Origin: a virus
Length of the DNA stretch: 20,162 nt
Virus record (IMG/VR): IMGVR_UViG_3300025645_000598
Coordinates: 1 to 20,162 of that record
Strand: one strand, 5' to 3'
Each line of letters starts with the position of its first letter. Positions within the stretch are counted from its first letter, which is position 1. The position numbers and the translations under genes were made by a program. Below, piece after piece: positions 4,506 to 19,531 of this stretch. The notes beneath the pieces are model-generated. The model did not search any database, was not told the origin of the DNA, and was given only the letters and a program-made list of their open reading frames with translations.

Positions 4506-5951
4506 TTATCTGCCCATGGCCTTGTTAAGTGCTTCTTGGCTAATTTTCAGCTTGTTGAACAGCGGGTATAACTGACGCAACGCCTGAGTCATCGCGTCAA
4601 CCTGGTCGTCATTAGCGGCAGCCGGGAACGCCGTCAACTCTGCGACTAGGTCTTTGACCCATGGCGCAAGCTCCGGATGTGGAATCCACACGTTCCCCGC
4701 TTCCCATACATGAGTAACCGCGTGCGCCCTTGCCAGCTTTGAGCCGTCAGGCTCGACCGGAATCAATCCCGACACAATTCCCTTTAGTGCGTCAATGACG
4801 GCCGGCCCGTTCGCTTTATCTTCAACGTAAAACTGACGAATTCTAGGGTGATCGCGCTTGAGCCTGACAACTTCCGAAATTGTTTTTGTAAAACTCATGC
4901 GGGCGCGAGACTGTTCCAGAAGGTACGAATTTGCCCCAAGTTTGCCCCAAACCTGGAACACGACAAAATCAGTTCCATCTGTATCCTTGAATGTAGCGTC
5001 GAGGCTGGCGATAACCTTGTCGAACTTGGCCGGCAAATCCTTGGGCAGATAGTAGCGTATGCCTTCTTCCTTGAAGACGTTGCCGCCCAGCGCCCGGGGG
5101 CTTTGCTGGTACATGGCCGACCACCAGTAGTCGCTAAACAGGCTTTTGACTTCTTGCAGGAATGCCAGGCTTTTAAGTTCCGGAACCAATGGGCCTTGCG
5201 GCAAGTTCGGGTTATAGCCAACCTCTCCGGGCAAGTTGATTGCCGGGAAGCGCAACACAGTAAGCCGCGGGTCGCCGTTGAAATGCTTGCAGATGCGGGC
5301 GGGTAAGTCGTCTTCCGCCCAACTGGTCGCCATGATGATTTGCCCGGAGTTCTCCGATAGCCGGGTCGTGAATACGGTTTGATACCAATTCCAATGCCCT
5401 TCCTTGACCGTGGGCGACAAGGCTTCCTTTTCGTTCTTTACCGGGTCGTCAATGATGCCAATGTCGACCGGGCGTCCCGTCAGGCCGGCGCCCACACCGA
5501 CGCCAAGATAGCCGCCAGCGCCGCCGGGCGCCGTAAATTCTCCGGTTCGGTTGACGTCATACCGGCGTTTTTCGGCCGGCTGGGGGAATAGCTTGCGATG
5601 CCGGTCGTCGGCCAGGTTGCGCCGCACGTCTTGGGCCATGGCGTTTGCCAGTTCGTCCGAATAGGACGCGGCGCCGACCCGCCAATCCGGGAAGCGCCCC
5701 AAGATATAGGCGGGCAGCTTCCGGCTAACAATTTCCGACTTCCCGTGCTGGGGCGGGGCCTGCAAAATCAGAACGGGCCGCTTGCCCGCTTGCATGTCAT
5801 CCAAGAACATGTCGAGGGCGGCGCATACCGACGCACTAAAGCCGCTTTGCTTGTACTTCGGGGAAGTGAAATTGATATAGGCGGCTAGTTGCCGCCTGGC
5901 TTCCCTACGCCGTAGCAGTTCGGCCGCGGCTTCACGCTTCGTCGGTAGCAT
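4506..5951 (-). CDS. terL: Terminase large subunit (ATPase/nuclease packaging motor)
   Basis: The protein has 481 residues. The ATPase domain shows a variant Walker A (QAPPQHGKSE, about residues 64-73) and a Walker B (IGIIDDP, about 164-170), followed by a motif III-like IIMATSWAEDD. The C-terminal RNase H-fold nuclease begins at ASLDATFKDTDGTDF (metal-binding Asp near 318) and ends with the conserved NDDQVDAMTQAL. It cuts concatemeric phage DNA and drives it into proheads through the portal encoded next. I chose the ATG at 5951 because GGAG lies 5 nt upstream. The ATG at 5972 has no ribosome site. The first 20 bases overlap the 3' end of the upstream GIY-YIG gene, whose Trp-Ser codons supply the GGAG. 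Confidence 0.95.
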   Translation of the reverse strand: MLPTKREAAAELLRRREARRQLAAYINFTSPKYKQSGFSASVCAALDMFLDDMQAGKRPVLILQAPPQHGKSEIVSRKLPAYILGRFPDWRVGAASYSDELANAMAQDVRRNLADDRHRKLFPQPAEKRRYDVNRTGEFTAPGGAGGYLGVGVGAGLTGRPVDIGIIDDPVKNEKEALSPTVKEGHWNWYQTVFTTRLSENSGQIIMATSWAEDDLPARICKHFNGDPRLTVLRFPAINLPGEVGYNPNLPQGPLVPELKSLAFLQEVKSLFSDYWWSAMYQQSPRALGGNVFKEEGIRYYLPKDLPAKFDKVIASLDATFKDTDGTDFVVFQVWGKLGANSYLLEQSRARMSFTKTISEVVRLKRDHPRIRQFYVEDKANGPAVIDALKGIVSGLIPVEPDGSKLARAHAVTHVWEAGNVWIPHPELAPWVKDLVAELTAFPAAANDDQVDAMTQALRQLYPLFNKLKISQEALNKAMGR

Positions 5952-6702
5952 CGTAGCTCCATCTGAAACCATACGCCGTGCGAACCTTACCTTTGCAGCA
6001 TTGCGAAATGTTCGACGGGATCGCCTTCGGGAACCCGTTTTGGCGCAACCAATCGGACGCCCATTTCACGCTTCCGAAGCGCATTCCATTCGAGCATCGT
6101 ACCGCCACGCGGCACGCGGCCGCCGCCTTTTCCGTATGTTCTGGTGAGCATTTGCGGCCGGTGAGTGCCGCCGATATTTTGGCCCGATGTTCGTTTGAAA
6201 ACTTACGGCCGCGCAACGCCACCGAACGTTTCTCCAAGGTTTCTCCACTCGGAAATAGCCCAAGGTTTGCGGCAGACAGCTTGCGGCGGGTTTCCTCCGA
6301 AACTGTTCGACCTTTGCTTTTCGCACCAATCAAGGCTTTAGTCGCTTCACTATGCCGCCTACCGATCAACGACGCCCGAAGTTTAGCTAAAGTTTCGGCA
6401 GATTTGACGTTCCCCGACATACCTTCGCCGCCATCGGTGAAATTGCAAAGAAACCCGCGACCAAGCAGAAGAATCGTTGATTTTTCAAATTCAAATGCGT
6501 CTGATTCGCTCATGGAGTCCTTGAGTATCTCCACGATCAGGCCGTGCTTCGCGACAATTCTTTGCCAGTGGACATTACGCCCATGAGTGAACCACGCTCG
6601 ATTTTTACGACCTTTTCCGACATAAAACGGCATGCCGTCGTCGGCCCGCAAATGCAGGTAGACGTAAAAGTCATTCGCTTGATTTTTCTCCGGTAACTTC
6701 AT
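5932..6702 (-). CDS. GIY-YIG homing endonuclease with several NUMOD3 repeats
   Basis: The 256-residue product has the GIY-YIG core (FYVYLHLRADDGMPFYVGKG near residues 12-31; Glu in FEFEKSTI; LCNFTDGGEG). It is followed by about five NUMOD3-like helical repeats (for example SAETLAKLRASLIGRRHSE, SEETRRKLSAANLG, SNEHRAKISAALTGRKCSPEH) and a C-terminal helix-turn-helix-like module ending AYGFRWSYD. It is clearly related to the endonuclease at 2167-2943 but has more NUMOD3 repeats and one terminal module rather than two. It lies between terS and terL. Its ATG (6702-6700) is inside the last 32 bases of terS in another frame, and its end overlaps terL. I see no strong ribosome site, so translation may be coupled to terS. 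Confidence 0.9.
   Translation of the reverse strand: MKLPEKNQANDFYVYLHLRADDGMPFYVGKGRKNRAWFTHGRNVHWQRIVAKHGLIVEILKDSMSESDAFEFEKSTILLLGRGFLCNFTDGGEGMSGNVKSAETLAKLRASLIGRRHSEATKALIGAKSKGRTVSEETRRKLSAANLGLFPSGETLEKRSVALRGRKFSNEHRAKISAALTGRKCSPEHTEKAAAACRVAVRCSNGMRFGSVKWASDWLRQNGFPKAIPSNISQCCKGKVRTAYGFRWSYDATDEA
5952..5960 (-). promoter_or_regulatory. Ribosome binding site fixing the terL start, inside the GIY-YIG gene
   Basis: GGAG (5960-5957) with a 5-nt spacer leads to the ATG at 5951. It is formed by the Trp-Ser codons near the end of the overlapping endonuclease gene, so the endonuclease reading frame carries the translation signal of an essential gene. Confidence 0.7.
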
Positions 6703-9348: not shown

Positions 9349-10200
9349 TCAGGATTTCACAGTAGCCGGCCAAGCGTTGTAATGGGCTTCTACCAGCACC
9401 AGGGCGGCCCGGTATTCAACGGCATGCACGTTGTCGCCGTGTTCCCCTTGCAGTTTGTCCCGGAACTCTTCCACGGTCCCGAAGAAGCAACCGGCACGAA
9501 GGTAGACGCCCTTTTCCGTGAGAAATGCTGCTAAAACGTCTTGCCGCGAACCGATTGGGCCAACCGCGAAATACGGACGGTCGCCCGTCAACTTACCCGC
9601 GTCCCCCAGGTTCGCGCCGCGCAGGTTCGCGTCCCCCAGGTCCGCGCCGTACAGGTCCGCGCCGCGCAGGTCCGCGCCGCGCAGGTCCGCGCCGCGCAGG
9701 TTCGCGTCCCCCAGGTTCGCGCCGCGCAGGTTCGCGCCGTACAGGTCCGCGCCGCGCAGGTTCGCGCCGCGCAGGTCCGCGCCGTACAGGTCCGCGCCGC
9801 GCAGGTCCGCGCCGCGCAGGTTCGCGTCCCCCAGGTCCGCGCCGCGCAGGTCCGCGCCGCGCAGGTTCGCGTCCCCCAGGTCCGCGCCGCGCAGGTCCGC
9901 GTCGCGCAGGTTCGCGTCGCGCAGGTTCGCGTCCCCCAGGTTCGCGTCCCCCAGGTTCGCGCCGCGCAGGTTCGCGCCGCGCAGGTTCGCGCCGCGCAGG
10001 TTCGCGTCCCCCAGGTTCGCGCCGTACAGGTCCGCGCCGCGCAGGTCCGCGCCGCGCAGGTTCGCGCCGCGCAGGTTCGCGCGGTACAGGTTCGTTTTCG
10101 CGTTTACCGCAACGGCCAACGTAATGGCGAGGGTGTTGTCGGTGCACTCGTGTGAGAAAAGTATTTCAAGATCAAAGTGGCTTTTGATTTCGATTTTCAT
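9349..10200 (-). CDS. Pentapeptide-repeat protein with conserved phage N- and C-terminal caps
   Basis: The product has 283 residues. Residues 36 to about 200 form 33 consecutive pentapeptides of the form A(N/D)L(R/G/Y)(G/D), predicting a right-handed quadrilateral beta-helix of about eight coils. The N-terminal cap (FDLEILFSHECTDNTLAITLAVAVNAKTNLYRA) and the C-terminal part (GPIGSRQDVLAAFLTEKGVYLRAGCFFGTVEEFRDKL...VEYRAALVLVEAHY) match the pattern common in phage pentapeptide proteins. Some pentapeptide proteins (Qnr, MfpA) mimic DNA and bind gyrase; no such role can be read from this sequence. GGAG lies 8 nt before the ATG. It is transcribed from promoter P3 and ended by an intrinsic terminator. 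The repeat DNA is almost identical between units, pointing to recent expansion. Confidence 0.93.
   Translation of the reverse strand: MKIEIKSHFDLEILFSHECTDNTLAITLAVAVNAKTNLYRANLRGANLRGADLRGADLYGANLGDANLRGANLRGANLRGANLGDANLGDANLRDANLRDADLRGADLGDANLRGADLRGADLGDANLRGADLRGADLYGADLRGANLRGADLYGANLRGANLGDANLRGADLRGADLRGADLYGADLGDANLRGANLGDAGKLTGDRPYFAVGPIGSRQDVLAAFLTEKGVYLRAGCFFGTVEEFRDKLQGEHGDNVHAVEYRAALVLVEAHYNAWPATVKS
9598..10094. repeat. 15-bp tandem repeats encoding the pentapeptides, about 33 units
   Basis: On the plus strand, units such as CAGGTTCGCGCCGCG, CAGGTCCGCGCCGCG, CAGGTTCGCGTCCCC and CAGGTCCGCGCCGTA repeat without interruption. Variation is confined to a T/C that switches Asn and Asp and to a few bases that switch RG, GD, YG and RD. 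Because the unit is a multiple of three and lacks stops, several other frames stay open and give meaningless repetitive ORFs. Confidence 0.95.
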
Positions 10201-10268: not shown

Positions 10269-10436
10269 CACAAATTGCACGGGCGTCGGAGCGGGAAAGC
10301 ATCGCGCCCAATCCTCCAAGCACTCCGGGCAAATAGGTTGACCGGCGCGCTCCTCGTGCGGTTGCGACCGGATGATATTAGGCCTCATGCAAAAGCCGCA
10401 TGTTGCGTGCGTGTGAGGCTGTCGGCGCTCAAGCAT
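10251..10436 (-). CDS. Small zinc-ribbon protein, 61 residues
   Basis: A strong AAGGAG lies 6 nt before the ATG at 10436, which overlaps the end of the primase gene by 8 bases. The protein (MLERRQPHTHATCGFCMRP...) has two CxxC pairs, CGFC and CPEC, spaced about 20 residues apart: a treble-clef or zinc-ribbon fold. Such small proteins often bind nucleic acid or accompany replication proteins; here the function is unknown. The stop TAA (10253-10251) lies within the operator palindrome of promoter P3, so its C-terminal codons double as promoter. It is the last gene of the replication operon. Confidence 0.75.
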   Translation of the reverse strand: MLERRQPHTHATCGFCMRPNIIRSQPHEERAGQPICPECLEDWARCFPAPTPVQFVLTLDK

Positions 10437-12843
10437 GGGCCACTCCTTGCAACGGGAAGGGGACGCCGGCCCGCGCATTGTTGGCGCGCTCGTAAGCCTT
10501 GGCGGCCTCTCCGGCGCCTTGAATGTGGAAGTCAGCGGCGGCCACATTGCAGAATAAGCGCGGCTTTCCTCCGTCCGGAAGAACTAGATTATTCACCCGC
10601 CCGTCGTGCAATGCTGGGTGAAATTCGTAACCCATGGCCTTGAGCATTTCCCGGCGCTTGGAGTGCGTGACACGGCGGCCGGCGCCCAAGCGCTCAAGGA
10701 GGCGGTCGAGTTGGATAGAGGAAATCCAGCCGCCGCAAAAGCCCGGGAGCCCCTGGCCGACGGCTTCGACAATTTCTTGCTCAATGCCGCCCGTGCTGGC
10801 CTCGATAGCCTCAGCGGTCGAGCTGGTAGCCGGAGCGCGCTGGCATTTCGTTGCCGGGTTGTAATCATCCGGGATTGGGAAGGTGTGCAAAAGCTCCGAC
10901 ACGATGGCGTAACCGTCCGCCCTGAGCCAATCGTACAGCTTGGGGAAGTAATCCCCGACCATGCCGTCCCGCGTAAGGTCGGCCGCCTGTTGTTGAGCTG
11001 AGAAGAGGGTACAAATACGGCGGTCGTTTTGCGTCTTGCGTACCGCGTCTTTATGGTTGCTGTTGAGCATGAAATTGCCGCACACGTCCGCGGAGATTTG
11101 GTCGACGCCCTTGCCTTCAATCTCAAGGCCGTCGCCGCCGGTAATCATCGGCTTCAATTCCTCAAAGACTTCCGCCCGGCTGTCCGGTAAATAGATATCC
11201 TCAACGCCATAGAAGACTTTGCCCAGCATCCAGCTATTGAACTGCGCGGCCAGTTTGGAAGCCTTCGGCCAATGCACGTACCGGCGCCCCACGGCTTCCG
11301 CAACGCAACGGGTGAACAAGGTTTTGCCGTTCCCTTCGACGCCTTGCAGCAAGGGTGCCCATTGGAATTTAATCCCCTTGTGTTGCACGCATGCGGCCAT
11401 GTAGCTGAGGAGAATCAAGCGGTCGCGCTCGTCAGGGAGCACCCGGCGCAAATGGTCAAGGAACGGCGTCGCGTCCCCAACTTTGCGGGGCACGTCGACC
11501 GGCCAATAGGTGTTAACAAATACCTGGCCGCCGCGTTGAATGAGGGCGCCGGGCGCTTCGTCAGGGCGGAAGCAAGGCGCATTGGCCCGGGGGCAGCGGT
11601 ACGCCTGGCTTTGCGTGAAGGCTTCCCAGGCGTCGCGGGTTGTCTTTTCGTTCGCCGTGTCCATGGTGAAGGTGTAGCCACCATAAGCAACTTTGAATTG
11701 CTCCGGCTTGAGCATGACGCCGCCGGGGACCAAGACCCGGTGCAAATCCTGTATATACACGCACCCAGCGAAAAGGCGCAATTGCTCTTCATTGTTGGCG
11801 AAGGTAGAGCCCGTGACCAAGGTCGGCTTTGGGGGTTCGTTCGTGGCGCTTGGCGCGGGGCTGTCAGGGGCGCCGGCCACGGGCTCCGGGGCCTTGTCCG
11901 TCAGCACTTCAAATTGACGCCCTACGGCCCCCAGGATGGTGCGCTCAAGATATGGGTCGCTATGCCTGTCCCACTTGTCGCGGACGAGGGCACTTTGTCG
12001 CATCAGGCGGTCAATTCGCTCACAGTTTGCGCCGGTCCAAAAACTAAGATGTTGTGCCAGCGCAGCGTCGGCCGACGATGCGTCATATGCCCGAACGGGG
12101 TCAGGGTAGCAGCGAGAAAGCGCGTCAATGTTGGCAGTCCATAAATCGGCAAAACTAGCACGACCGCCGAACGCGGAAGCCGTGGATTGTGACCGCAACG
12201 CCCGTTTAATCAGTTCTTCATCTGAAGTCGGTCCGCGCCACTCGCTCCGCGCTTCGGTGGTCCATTCTTGGGCCAAGCCTTGGGCGGATTCGTTCGGGAA
12301 ATAATCGGCAACTATCGCCGGGAGAAGATGCGAGAAGTCGACGCCAGCGTTGCCGACTGCGTTCATGCCCGTCAAAGTCATGAAGCGTCCGCTATGATAA
12401 AATTCAAGCCCCAGCGCGATATTCTTGCAACCGTGCGCAGGCGGTCGACCTGATCCAAATATGTGAAGCCCGGTCCCGCTGGGGCTCACTTCGATTGCGG
12501 CCCCGTTAAGCAATTGGCAAAGTTGATTTGCGACAGGCGACCATTGCCCGTTGACTAGACATGCGTCAATGTCGAGTGCCCAAAACGGGTCGGATTCGGT
12601 AAAAACAAACCCGAGTCCGAAACTTTGCCCAAAGTTTGCGGCGGCGGCATATGCGGTGCCGGAATCAGTCCAATACGCAGGATCATGAGCGGATACCACG
12701 CGGCCGGTGCGAAAATCACACGGTAATTTGTCCCACTTTCCGGGTCTACTTTGACTCGCAACCAATTTGTAGACGATGAATTGGCGGTATTGCGCCATTG
12801 CCGAAAGCGGCCCTTGTAGGGCAGTAATTATTGAATTAAGCAT
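10429..12843 (-). CDS. Primase-polymerase/SF3 helicase-type replication protein (DUF5906-like)
   Basis: The 804-residue protein combines an N-terminal archaeo-eukaryotic primase (PrimPol-like) part with a C-terminal helicase. Seen in order: KWDKLPCDFRTG near residues 36-47, the metal-binding DID (91-93, in FWALDIDAC), SPSGTGLHIFG (120-130), GLEFYHSGRFMTLTG (145-159), a Pro-rich linker (about 319-342), then an SF3-type Walker A GVEGNGKT (501-508), a Walker B-like VFYGVEDIYL, and FMLNSNHKDAVRKTQNDRR. These proteins prime and unwind phage or plasmid DNA, so this is the likely core replication initiator. The ATG at 12843 lies 4 bases after the TetR-like gene; its ribosome site is weak. ATG 12798 is an alternative without better support. 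Confidence 0.9.
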   Translation of the reverse strand: MLNSIITALQGPLSAMAQYRQFIVYKLVASQSRPGKWDKLPCDFRTGRVVSAHDPAYWTDSGTAYAAAANFGQSFGLGFVFTESDPFWALDIDACLVNGQWSPVANQLCQLLNGAAIEVSPSGTGLHIFGSGRPPAHGCKNIALGLEFYHSGRFMTLTGMNAVGNAGVDFSHLLPAIVADYFPNESAQGLAQEWTTEARSEWRGPTSDEELIKRALRSQSTASAFGGRASFADLWTANIDALSRCYPDPVRAYDASSADAALAQHLSFWTGANCERIDRLMRQSALVRDKWDRHSDPYLERTILGAVGRQFEVLTDKAPEPVAGAPDSPAPSATNEPPKPTLVTGSTFANNEEQLRLFAGCVYIQDLHRVLVPGGVMLKPEQFKVAYGGYTFTMDTANEKTTRDAWEAFTQSQAYRCPRANAPCFRPDEAPGALIQRGGQVFVNTYWPVDVPRKVGDATPFLDHLRRVLPDERDRLILLSYMAACVQHKGIKFQWAPLLQGVEGNGKTLFTRCVAEAVGRRYVHWPKASKLAAQFNSWMLGKVFYGVEDIYLPDSRAEVFEELKPMITGGDGLEIEGKGVDQISADVCGNFMLNSNHKDAVRKTQNDRRICTLFSAQQQAADLTRDGMVGDYFPKLYDWLRADGYAIVSELLHTFPIPDDYNPATKCQRAPATSSTAEAIEASTGGIEQEIVEAVGQGLPGFCGGWISSIQLDRLLERLGAGRRVTHSKRREMLKAMGYEFHPALHDGRVNNLVLPDGGKPRLFCNVAAADFHIQGAGEAAKAYERANNARAGVPFPLQGVAHA

Positions 12844-14198: not shown

Positions 14199-14401
14199 TG
14201 ACGCGACCAGTATCCATTATCAATAGGTGCGTCAATTTCCAAATTTGCCACAGGAACCGCCCGCGTTCGATCTTGAAATTTAACATCAACCGTTTTGCCA
14301 AAAACTCCGACAACTTCCCCTCGAAGATCGGCCATATTTTTGTCGCTACCGCAACGTTTAACGACGGACGATTTGAATTTAACTTGATTTCCAATTTTCA
14401 T
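14195..14401 (-). CDS. Small hypothetical protein, 68 residues, SH3/KOW-like
   Basis: GGAG lies 8 nt before the ATG at 14401; a GTG at 14410 in the same frame is too close to it. The sequence ([18 protein letters not shown], then LRGEVVGVFGKTVDVKFQDRTRAVPVANLEI) has the rhythm of a small beta-barrel (SH3- or KOW-like), with G-x-V-x-G turns and a V-x-V-x-F strand. Such barrels bind nucleic acid or partner proteins; no function can be assigned. Its ATG overlaps the stop of the cytosine methyltransferase gene (ATGA), and its stop overlaps the nuclease start (ATGA). Confidence 0.7.
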   Translation of the reverse strand: MKIGNQVKFKSSVVKRCGSDKNMADLRGEVVGVFGKTVDVKFQDRTRAVPVANLEIDAPIDNGYWSRQ

Positions 14402-15411
14402 GGTCGGCACTCCAAATAAGTTTCTATGAAAGCTTGCGCTTGCGCGGCGTTGATCGCGTTACCGTAGGCGCGCAGGCGTCCCACTCGGGCGGGAGCCCCA
14501 TGAGCCAACGGGAATGTGCCGGGTTCAACTGGCCGCCACTTTCCATCTCGGCAAAAGAGCCAATCAGCATCCGACCATCTGCCGTTAACCGGGCCGGTTG
14601 AGGGTGTTGCGTCAATAACGCCTGAAACTCCGTGCAACTGCCGCCCTGCGCGTATTGCGTCGACTGCTGGTTCGCCGTTGGTGTGGTCCACCCGGCAAGC
14701 AAATCTTGCCGGGGCAACTGGTCGAACCTCTCCGAACCGTCCGCCCTCGGTTTTATGTCCGCTCCCGAATCTTTCCAATCCCGCGTCGTTGGTGTTGTCC
14801 ACGCGCTCAATTTGGCGGCCCCTGGCAACTTCAACGCTATTTTGCGCGACCCGTCCAGATTGGTCCCGGTGTAGCAATGCGTTGACCCAAGGCTGTCGTT
14901 GACTATCGGAGTCGGCCAGCCAGTAAAGCCGGTCGCGGATATGCGGGGCGCCGACGCCCGCAGACGGAAACGGGACCGCCCCGAAGGCGTAACCCAAGGC
15001 TTCCATGTCAGTTTGTACAAGGTCGACCCATATATCAGCGTCTTTGCTGCTAACCTGTTCACCAAAGACGACGACAGGGCTTCGCTGTCCAATGAGATGG
15101 AACCATGCTGGCCATAAATGCCGCTCGTCAGCAAACCCATTTCCCTGGCCTGCTTGGCTGAAAGGTTGGCAGGGGCAAGAGCCCGTCCAAACAGGGCGGC
15201 TGTCGCCCCATCCGGCACGACGCAAGGCATAGGACCAAACCCCGATGCCGGCAAAGAAATGGCATTGTGTGAATCCGGCAAGGTCGCTTGGTTTAACATC
15301 CTCAATACTCCTTTGGTCTACTTCACCCGGCGCAATGTGGCCGGCGGCAATTAGGTTCCGTAACCACTGTGCGGCGTACGGGTCGTTTTCATTAAAATAG
15401 GCTTTAGGCAT
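14398..15411 (-). CDS. DNA (cytosine-5) methyltransferase, phage type
   Basis: The 337-residue protein has the ordered motifs of C5-cytosine methyltransferases: motif [15 protein letters not shown] (near residue 50), motif [11 protein letters not shown] with catalytic Cys81, motif VI FGEQV (116-120, replacing ENV), motif [15 protein letters not shown] (157-166) and motif [13 protein letters not shown] near the C-terminus. The stretch between motifs VIII and X is a variable target-recognition region. It transfers a methyl group from S-adenosylmethionine to cytosine and probably protects phage DNA from host restriction. It follows the DEAH helicase gene by 11 bases. Another long open frame lies completely inside it. 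Confidence 0.92.
14424..15299 (-). CDS. Overlapping gene inside the cytosine methyltransferase, 291 residues, unknown function
   Basis: This frame is nested wholly within the methyltransferase gene. AAAGGAG (15314-15308) lies 8 nt before the ATG at 15299, a better ribosome site than the methyltransferase itself has. The protein contains [35 protein letters not shown], three WxTP motifs (GWPTP, AWTTP, GWTTP), [11 protein letters not shown], a [12 protein letters not shown] stretch, and a closing [20 protein letters not shown]. From memory, proteins with these motifs are widespread in phages and annotated as hypothetical or methyltransferase-associated; I could not check this. In GC-rich DNA long chance frames are common, but the ribosome site and motif pattern argue for real dual coding. 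Function unknown. Confidence 0.6.
15300..15314 (-). promoter_or_regulatory. Strong internal ribosome binding site for the nested frame
   Basis: AAAGGAG (15314-15308) with an 8-nt spacer before the ATG at 15299. It lies in the methyltransferase codons for Gln-Arg-Ser and has no use for that frame. Confidence 0.6.
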
Positions 15412-17174: not shown

Positions 17175-18197
17175 TTATGAGCAAGCCTCCCAAATTGGAT
17201 CGCCAGTAACGTCTTGAAATTTGTCGTTTGCAACAATTGATCCGTCATGGCATTCGATTACAGCGAATGTTTGCAAATTCAAAAATAATTTGCGATTGAA
17301 CAATTCGGCCAAATTGTTTACTGCCATGTTGAAATATGACGGCTTTAACTCAGATCCGGCAAATTTGCGATCAGCTTTAATTGCGCAATGTGCAGTTGAT
17401 CCAATTCCGCTAAATGGGTCAAACACAATATCGCCCGGATTGCTCCAAAGCTCAATGCCTCGCTCGATGATGTCAAGTGCCATCGGGCAAATGTGGCGTT
17501 CATCTTCATCATCACGCCCGCCGCGATAGTTGAGCGTGCGACTTGATCTGACGTCCATCCATACTGGTGACGCGTATCTGCGCCAGCGGTTATGACTCAA
17601 GTTACCATCAGTCGGTTCGTCCTCACCAATAAATTCGGTCAGCCCGTGTTCGTGCGCCACCGGTTCGGCATTCACGCCAGGCTTGCGGAATGTCAAAAGG
17701 TATTGCGGAAGTCCTGCGCGAGATAGTGCCGAATCCTTGCAAAGTTGCTTGTGCATTAGGCCTATGGCTTTGGTGCGAGTAGCTTCGATCAGAGGGTCTT
17801 TCCATATCACATGCTCACTGTGATAGATAAACCCGTGTTTGATGAATGCCGCGATCAAAGCCCCGCGAAAATCCTTTAATCCGATGTATCCGTCGCGGCT
17901 TTTCATCGCGGGCAGATTCATGCAATCGACAGACACATTGCGCCCCGGCATCATGATTCGCATCAGCCCTTGAATCACAAAATCAAAGTGTGCAAAAAAT
18001 TCAACATCAGACCTGCAATTACCAATGTCGCGCTCAGAGTTCGAATATGCGTACAGGTTTGAATATGGCGGCGAAAAGATAGAATAGCCGACCGAATTTG
18101 CTGGCATCATGTTCATGACTTCAACACAATCCCCGTTGTAAAGGGCGCATTTGTCGTTAACGAATTGATCGATGATTTGCATATTGATTACATCCAT
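17175..18197 (-). CDS. DNA N4-cytosine/N6-adenine methyltransferase, class beta
   Basis: The 340-residue protein has motif IV SPPY at 42-45 and the SAM-binding motif I DPFSGIGST at 260-268, followed by GSELKPSYF. This order (IV before I) marks the beta class of amino-methyltransferases; SPPY is commoner in N4-cytosine enzymes but does not exclude adenine. The long middle segment (about 100-250) would hold the target recognition part. It probably modifies phage DNA to escape restriction; no cognate restriction nuclease is visible. The ATG at 18197 overlaps the end of the SNF2 gene by 10 bases; an ATG five codons later (18182) is an alternative, and neither has a strong ribosome site. G+C is visibly lower than in the helicase gene downstream. 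Confidence 0.9.
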   Translation of the reverse strand: MDVINMQIIDQFVNDKCALYNGDCVEVMNMMPANSVGYSIFSPPYSNLYAYSNSERDIGNCRSDVEFFAHFDFVIQGLMRIMMPGRNVSVDCMNLPAMKSRDGYIGLKDFRGALIAAFIKHGFIYHSEHVIWKDPLIEATRTKAIGLMHKQLCKDSALSRAGLPQYLLTFRKPGVNAEPVAHEHGLTEFIGEDEPTDGNLSHNRWRRYASPVWMDVRSSRTLNYRGGRDDEDERHICPMALDIIERGIELWSNPGDIVFDPFSGIGSTAHCAIKADRKFAGSELKPSYFNMAVNNLAELFNRKLFLNLQTFAVIECHDGSIVANDKFQDVTGDPIWEACS

Positions 18198-19531
18198 GAA
18201 GGTAAGTTGATGAATTTTTTAGGGGCGTAGTCGGTGCGTTCTCTGATAGTGCCGACAACCTCTCGCCGTGTGAACTCTCGCATGTGACTGACCATTTGAT
18301 CGGCCATCACATCGGCTTGCGCTTGTTTGCGGTCAAGATTGTCTTTGACTGCACCTTCGGCCGATGTGTAGATGATGTACGTACACACCTCGCGTTTTTG
18401 GCCGAACCGATAGCATCGGCGCACGGCTTGATAAAACTTTTCGTAGGAATCATCAAGCCCAACAAATGCCACATTTCGGCAATGCTGCCAGTTGAGTCCG
18501 AATCCGCAGATTTTTGGCTTGCTGATAATTACCCGAGCATTGCCGTGTGAAAATTTGGTTATCAATTCTTCTTTTTTGGATGATGGCAATGATCCAAAAA
18601 CCTCGACTGCATCGGGAATCAGGCTTGCTAGAAGTGCAGATTCGTCATTCAAATTGCACCAGATCACCCACGGTTCATCTGACATGTTCACCATATCAGC
18701 GAGAAGTCTGCATCGAGCGTCAATCGATACCTTGCGAGCGTTGCGGCGTTCGGTCATTGTGTTGGCCCGTGGTGCGTCAACATCAATCTGACAATCGACC
18801 ATATGCATGGGGGGCAGTTTGTACCGTGATCCATCAAACCCCAGATCGGTCGGACTACGGATGAACGCTGCCCATGTTGCTAGCCATTCCCAAAACTTTG
18901 TCTTTCCGTGACCCTTCAATCGCCATTTACTTGTGTCAGATCCATCGTGCGTGAAGAACATCGCCAGCATCTCAGTGTGTTTCATGACTCCCAAAAATTC
19001 AGCCTGACTGCCAAGCTCCATGTAATCATTCGGGCTCGGCGTAGCCGTGCAACTTAGCCGATACGGGGTTTCCGCAAATTTGGCAATTGTTGCCATGCGC
19101 GTTTTGGAATCTTCGCCCTTCAAAATGGATGATTCATCTAGCACCACTCCGATAAATTGTGATGCGTCAAAATGTTGAATCATTTCATAATTCGTGATGA
19201 TGATCCGATGGCCATTCACCTCTGATTGATGGCGCATGTATGTGACTGTGATGCCAAAATGCGCGCCTTCTTCAACTGTTTGCTGCGCTACGCAAAGCGG
19301 CGCCACAATCATTACAGGTTTGCCGGTGTAATCTGCCACGGCGTCAGCCCATGACAATTGCATCAGTGTCTTACCTAGGCCGGTGTCGGCAAACACTGCG
19401 CTACGCCCCTTTTTCAACGCCCATCTGACGATGGCTTCTTGAAAGTCAAACAAGTTGACATTGAGATCTTCTGCATCAAATCCCCCATAGACGTCCGTGA
19501 CGGACTTGCGCTTTAAAAATTCCTCGTACAT
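18188..19531 (-). CDS. SNF2-like DNA helicase/translocase
   Basis: The 447-residue protein contains the two RecA-like lobes of SNF2-type SF2 ATPases: LFDFQEAIVRWAL (Q-motif region), Walker A ADTGLGKT (48-55), motif II LDES (131-134, DES instead of DEAH), motif III TATP (162-165), motif IV-like PWVIWCNLNDES, motif V SKPKICGFGLNWQHC and motif VI QAVRRCYRFGQ (368-378). Phage SNF2 proteins of this size act in replication, recombination or remodelling of protein-DNA complexes. AGGAG lies 9 nt before the ATG at 19531, and a promoter is positioned at 19561-19590. It is the first gene of the left-facing operon and overlaps the methyltransferase gene. The pair shares a lower G+C than their neighbours. 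Confidence 0.92.
   Translation of the reverse strand: MYEEFLKRKSVTDVYGGFDAEDLNVNLFDFQEAIVRWALKKGRSAVFADTGLGKTLMQLSWADAVADYTGKPVMIVAPLCVAQQTVEEGAHFGITVTYMRHQSEVNGHRIIITNYEMIQHFDASQFIGVVLDESSILKGEDSKTRMATIAKFAETPYRLSCTATPSPNDYMELGSQAEFLGVMKHTEMLAMFFTHDGSDTSKWRLKGHGKTKFWEWLATWAAFIRSPTDLGFDGSRYKLPPMHMVDCQIDVDAPRANTMTERRNARKVSIDARCRLLADMVNMSDEPWVIWCNLNDESALLASLIPDAVEVFGSLPSSKKEELITKFSHGNARVIISKPKICGFGLNWQHCRNVAFVGLDDSYEKFYQAVRRCYRFGQKREVCTYIIYTSAEGAVKDNLDRKQAQADVMADQMVSHMREFTRREVVGTIRERTDYAPKKFINLPSWM

Follow-up and report, generated by a model that had tools for sequence, protein, structure and literature searches.

Introduction

The methyltransferase M.EcoHK31I has the specificity YGGCCR and needs both of its polypeptides for methylation. 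Its smaller polypeptide was reportedly found by Lee, Kam and Shaw in 1995 to be read from a different frame of the gene for the larger one. The larger polypeptide comprises motifs I-VIII and X and the smaller one motif IX; the placement of the TRD in the larger subunit is a published prediction and not a demonstrated property (PMC3404938). M.AquI is a C5 methyltransferase made of two polypeptides, with the division falling in the variable region; the smaller one comprises motifs IX and X together with half of this region (PMC3404938).

In this study a viral C5 cytosine methyltransferase gene and a second ORF nested within it were analysed in a stretch of DNA of 20,162 nucleotides, in the following called the window. 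An initial annotation had reported the nested, 291-codon ORF as lying out of frame in the methyltransferase gene. The ORF was found as described, and both ORFs are located on the minus strand, which had not been stated before. Our results indicate that the nested ORF very probably encodes the TRD and motif IX subunit (beta) of a heterodimeric C5 methyltransferase, with the enclosing gene encoding the alpha subunit. A description of this phage overlap was not found in the literature searched, which took in few subscription journals.

Materials and methods

A database search with the nested protein and an analysis of constraint in both frames, as proposed in the initial annotation, were carried out. 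In-frame stops were counted in 128 distinct homologous methyltransferase genes and compared with expectations obtained by shuffling synonymous codons within each gene. Two-frame dN/dS ratios were determined in the manner of OLGenie (PMC7531306) for 46 independent gene pairs with 78-99% identity, taken from a set of 195 genes; changes were classed as synonymous or nonsynonymous in each frame, and intervals were obtained by bootstrap over the pairs. Alignment A2 comprised 74 alpha sequences. Two samples of 80 viral loci each were taken, one using only similarity to the methyltransferase and the other using similarity to the nested protein. Layouts were surveyed by an automated motif scan of loci from phages related to Mycobacterium phage Rita (actinophages).

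Results

The beta ORF extends from an ATG at 15299-15297 to a stop codon at 14426-14424, and all its 291 codons lie in the +1 frame within alpha (Table 1). The sequence AAAGGAG was confirmed exactly 8 nt ahead of the ATG; its position at 15314-15308 explains why 15314 had initially been given as the end coordinate of the ORF. The ordered motifs noticed in the nested protein were also all present, namely three WxTP repeats at residues 128-131, 167-170 and 204-207 as well as RDWKDSG and DQLPRQ. Alpha matched PF00145 (E 2.4e-11; 44.1 bits, cut-off 22) and phrog_363 (E 9.6e-88), its residues 77-166 matched M.HhaI (phmmer, E 1.3e-6), and its score of 28.1 against the dcm model TIGR00675 stayed under the cut-off of 100.65. 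For beta, matches were obtained to phrog_31772 (E 2.9e-37) and phrog_1008 (E 2.8e-31), both labelled 'DNA methyltransferase', and none in Pfam, NCBIfam or PDB.

Table 1 Features of the nested methyltransferase locus, in positions of the window
Feature	Position	Strand	Remarks
Alpha, C5 cytosine methyltransferase ORF	14398..15411	minus	337 aa; catalytic subunit with motifs I, IV, VI, VIII and X
Beta, nested +1-frame ORF	14424..15299	minus	291 aa; putative TRD and motif IX subunit
Shine-Dalgarno sequence AAAGGAG of beta	15308..15314	minus	inside alpha codons 33-35 (Q-R-S); 8 nt upstream of ATG
Alpha motif I, FAGIG, residues 53-57	15241..15255	minus	A54, G55 and G57 invariant in A2
Alpha motif IV, PCQPFS, catalytic Cys81	15157..15174	minus	P80, C81, Q82, P83 and S85 invariant, 74 sequences
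Alpha motif VI position, GEQV	15052..15063	minus	G117, E118, Q119 and V120 invariant in A2
Alpha motif, residues 154-161	14929..14952	minus	phmmer to M.HhaI and alignment A2
Alpha linker, residues 173-306	14494..14895	minus	at the expected TRD position; modelled as disordered, pLDDT about 40
Alpha motif X	14413..14472	minus	Y316, G317 and N318 invariant; modelled helix 307-335
Beta conserved N-terminal part, residues 43-129	14913..15173	minus	overlaps alpha motifs IV-VIII; both frames constrained
Beta variable region, three WxTP repeats, read as TRD	14532..14921	minus	aligns with xTP repeats of single-chain methyltransferases
Beta motif IX-like sequence, residues 258-273	14481..14528	minus	matches LAPAFSEWMMGWPAGW beside GNGVVPQQA in Rita gp76

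Alpha contains, in this order, the SAM-binding motif I, the catalytic PCQ of motif IV, motif VIII and motif X. Motif IX is absent from alpha, and the chain is modelled without a folded TRD or small domain. In the structural model, which matched M.HhaI and M.HaeIII (Foldseek, E 3e-6 to 1e-5), residues 1-172, except for short loops, and the motif X helix were predicted with confidence. The last third of the linker between these parts is conserved. At motif VI all 74 aligned sequences carry GEQV (residues 117-120 in A2) instead of the usual ENV, which is retained in single-chain enzymes of the Rita type.

The initial annotation had regarded the nested ORF as more than a chance frame, which was borne out by the distribution of stop codons. 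Only 12 in-frame stops were observed in the nested core of the 128 genes, compared with 436 expected under synonymous shuffling, and the core was fully open in 117 genes at a mean chance of 2.8% per gene. The third positions of alpha codons, which are the second positions of the nested frame, vary before alpha codon 80; their variability then drops, and over codons 201-240 the third position is the least variable of the codon positions.

The dN/dS ratios revealed purifying selection on the nested frame inside beta. Upstream of beta, where the same frame served as negative control, the ratios were 1.01 and 1.17, as in unconstrained sequence, and residues 1-42 of beta exhibited little constraint (0.87 and 0.42). 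From residue 43 to residue 291 the bootstrap intervals of the beta frame remained below 1 in all three segments. Both frames were under purifying selection over residues 43-129 (beta 0.38 and 0.16; alpha 0.20 and 0.08) and 242-291 (beta 0.35 and 0.21; alpha 0.24 and 0.15). The nested ORF is thus a genuine gene, and both frames are selected as genes. Over residues 130-241 the beta frame was constrained (0.52 and 0.33), whereas the alpha frame was nearly neutral (0.89, interval 0.82-0.97, and 0.57); the nested frame dominates there, and the variable region therefore belongs mainly to the nested protein. It was unexpected that the apparent target-recognition stretch of alpha is nearly neutral over much of its length and modelled as disordered. 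The initial view that sharing the variable region would constrain both proteins held in part: the overlap covers this region and both frames are constrained over much of the overlap, but alpha is near-neutral over the variable region itself.

Codon choice in alpha also bears on the start of beta. The rare codon AGG encodes Arg34 in 71/172 homologues against a background of 8% (p 6e-33), and GAT encodes Asp38 in 142/167 against 39% (p 4e-34). These two codons create the SD sequence and the ATG of beta, indicating that the start signal is kept by codon choice. The ATG was present in 133 of the 172 homologues and absent from 39; an SD-like sequence occurred in 97, all of which also possessed the ATG (97/97). 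Between the beta ATG and codon 91, nested-frame stops were found in none of the 97 homologues with both elements versus 8 of the 75 without them. Given the weak constraint on the first ~42 residues and the lack of the ATG in the 39 homologues, beta may not always start at the same position. A TTG or ATG near alpha codons 92-93 that is accompanied by an SD-like sequence is common and represents a second candidate start, from which shorter forms of beta are possible; this SD-like sequence may also result simply from the alpha residues that are conserved at this place. The two candidate start sites showed no anti-correlation (p 0.60).

The C-terminus of beta, LNPxHSRWLMGxPxEW, is nearly invariant, with L258, R264, W265, L266, P270 and W273 unchanged in 83 sequences. 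Judged by its sequence, it looks like the C5 motif IX that alpha lacks. In profile comparisons, residues 127-283 of beta aligned with the xTP-repeat and motif IX region of single-chain methyltransferases (hhalign, E 1.8e-6, probability 89.7%), and alpha aligned with their motifs I-VIII (E 1e-20). Beta would accordingly be expected to adopt a small-domain fold, a suggestion drawn from these sequence comparisons. The AlphaFold model of beta alone was poor (pTM 0.29), and only a helix at residues 71-90 and a hairpin at 96-116 were well modelled; no solved structure was matched by a model too weak for a useful fold search. Such an outcome would be expected if beta folds on its partner and does not constitute evidence in itself.

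Homologues of the nested protein had been supposed to exist in many phages. The search retrieved the beta frame from 199 of 50,697 phage records (E<=1e-5), in 124 of them over at least 80% of its length and in all with less than 60% identity. The nested frame was located at +1 in every viral locus of both samples (80 selected by alpha, 80 by beta); one deviating offset value belonged to the locus of the window itself, whose sequence is stored in reverse orientation. The 80 best loci by beta in cellular genomes, mostly Proteobacteria, likewise contained alpha and beta as a nested pair (80/80; 79 full-length and one cut by a contig end); these loci are presumably prophages. Beta without alpha was not encountered among the 80 best cellular or the sampled viral loci. 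Pairs of the same layout were also found in phages of Paenibacillus, Lacticaseibacillus, Stenotrophomonas and Mycobacterium. The records of Erythrobacter phage R6L (L006) and Cylindrospermopsis phage Cr-LKS3 (L179) annotate as methyltransferase the ORF in the beta frame and have no annotation for alpha.

The identity of beta is supported most clearly by the protein gp76 of Mycobacterium phage Rita, which contains in a single frame motifs I-VIII, three LPTP repeats, LAPAFSEWMMGWPAGW and then GNGVVPQQA (motif X). It consists of the same parts as the alpha and beta pair, but all of them reside in one ORF frame, and its +1 frame retains only a beta-like beginning. Three layouts were distinguished among the Rita-related loci. 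In about 27 split loci alpha ends before motif IX, which is found in the +1 frame (together with motif X in 26); in about 38 nested loci motif IX lies in the +1 frame within alpha and motif X was assigned to the alpha frame in 26; and in 20 fused loci a single frame carries all motifs. In those fused members that were inspected directly (Rita, L180 and L183) the beta-like beginning persists in the +1 frame. These layouts, together with the +1 remnant in fused members, suggest that the TRD moved repeatedly between frames. In Mycobacterium phage Jarcob (L173, 1621-2791), a sequence nearly identical to that of Rita gp76 is annotated as two ORFs; the frame break sits between motifs VI and VIII, and the single-chain methyltransferase looks interrupted.

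Elsewhere in the window, a second DNA methyltransferase of the N6/N4 type (PF01555, E 2e-18) adjoins a SNF2-type helicase on the minus strand (17175-18197 and 18188-19531), and positions 10429-12843 (minus) encode a large replication protein carrying DUF5906 in addition to an NrS-1 polymerase HBD domain. Next to the portal and terminase genes lie two related minus-strand ORFs (2167-2961 and 5932-6702), both of which combine a NUMOD3 motif with a GIY-YIG-like beginning (FYVYLHFRSDDGLPFYVGKG) and are probably free-standing homing endonucleases. The gene at 9349-10200 (minus) encodes a pentapeptide-repeat protein. On both strands several further frames of this region remain open over about 180-235 codons; these look like by-products of the pentapeptide repeat.

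Discussion

Alpha and beta would be two translation products of a single mRNA that join to form one methyltransferase. Alpha would contribute the catalytic domain, and beta the small domain with motif IX, through which the DNA target is read. The enzyme would probably methylate the phage DNA as an orphan methyltransferase and in this way act against host restriction. A restriction gene was not recognised in the scanned parts of the window.

Although a true single-frame fusion exists in some actinophages, so that a joined chain works, we regard it as very improbable that a programmed +1 frameshift from alpha to beta yields one fused product in the canonical order of motifs I-VIII, TRD and IX. 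Beta possesses a conserved SD sequence and ATG of its own, its residues 43-129 are constrained despite lying upstream of any sensible junction, and motif X remains conserved in the alpha frame.

The initial annotation had proposed an independent overprinted protein that couples modification to another anti-host function. A start signal and PHROG families of its own would agree with such a protein, but this proposal was not supported by the comparison of loci and now appears very unlikely. Beta co-occurred with alpha throughout the sampled loci (80/80 and 80/80), it provides the very motif that is missing from alpha, and its counterpart in single-chain methyltransferases occupies the canonical place of TRD and motif IX.

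Finally, overlapping frames in conserved GC-rich genes often appear open, and one antisense frame is long too in many of the homologues (median 171 codons), but a chance frame that stays open owing to the GC content of the methyltransferase gene and its codon bias was rejected by the stop deficit and the two-frame selection tests and has a negligible probability in view of dN/dS ratios well below 1 inside beta only, a start signal maintained by rare codon choice and homologous protein sequence in single-chain methyltransferases.

With the nested ORF taken as the beta subunit, a wider reading can be offered for the whole class, towards which we lean with some reservation. The TRD would reside wholly in the nested beta, and most of the long variable region of alpha would be a frame-compatible spacer. 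Frame changes would have shifted the parts repeatedly among nested, split and fused layouts, so that C5 methyltransferases could evolve between single-chain and two-subunit forms by way of overlapping coding.

The locus is a well-supported phage example of a gene within a gene, and relatives with nested, split and fused layouts exist in nature for comparison. Gene callers often retain one of the two frames, and many phage and prophage records consequently contain half an enzyme; either half may be named 'DNA methyltransferase'. If, as is probable, beta carries target recognition, the specificity becomes testable, and the unconstrained appearance of much of the alpha 'variable region' is explained.

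Two phage records contain the same +1 nested pair with both ORFs annotated, Escherichia phage K1H (ORF29, 'C-specific methylase', and ORF28, 'Mte8-like') and Paenibacillus phage Shelly (gp55 and gp56, the latter as 'g55 internal gene'). These records name the inner ORF without a subunit role, and most other records inspected annotate only one of the two. A paper analysing the nested ORFs of K1H or Shelly was not found in the literature searched.

Compared with M.AquI, in which motif X is part of the smaller subunit, motif X remains in alpha at this locus; the actinophage relatives L201, L203 and L204 come nearer to the M.AquI division, but their genes overlap. The division into motifs I-VIII and X on one chain and motif IX on the other agrees with the published description of M.EcoHK31I, to which the comparison refers. 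Here the smaller gene lies inside the larger one in another frame, an arrangement that M.EcoHK31I reportedly shares. The two differ in the TRD, which was predicted for the larger subunit of M.EcoHK31I; here the TRD-like region is found in beta. Given that the corresponding stretch of alpha is near-neutral and modelled as disordered, target recognition probably resides in beta, against the published assignment for M.EcoHK31I. Owing to the shared division of motifs, the alpha and beta pair most likely belongs to the known two-subunit kind of the M.EcoHK31I type, a layout that is widespread but under-annotated.
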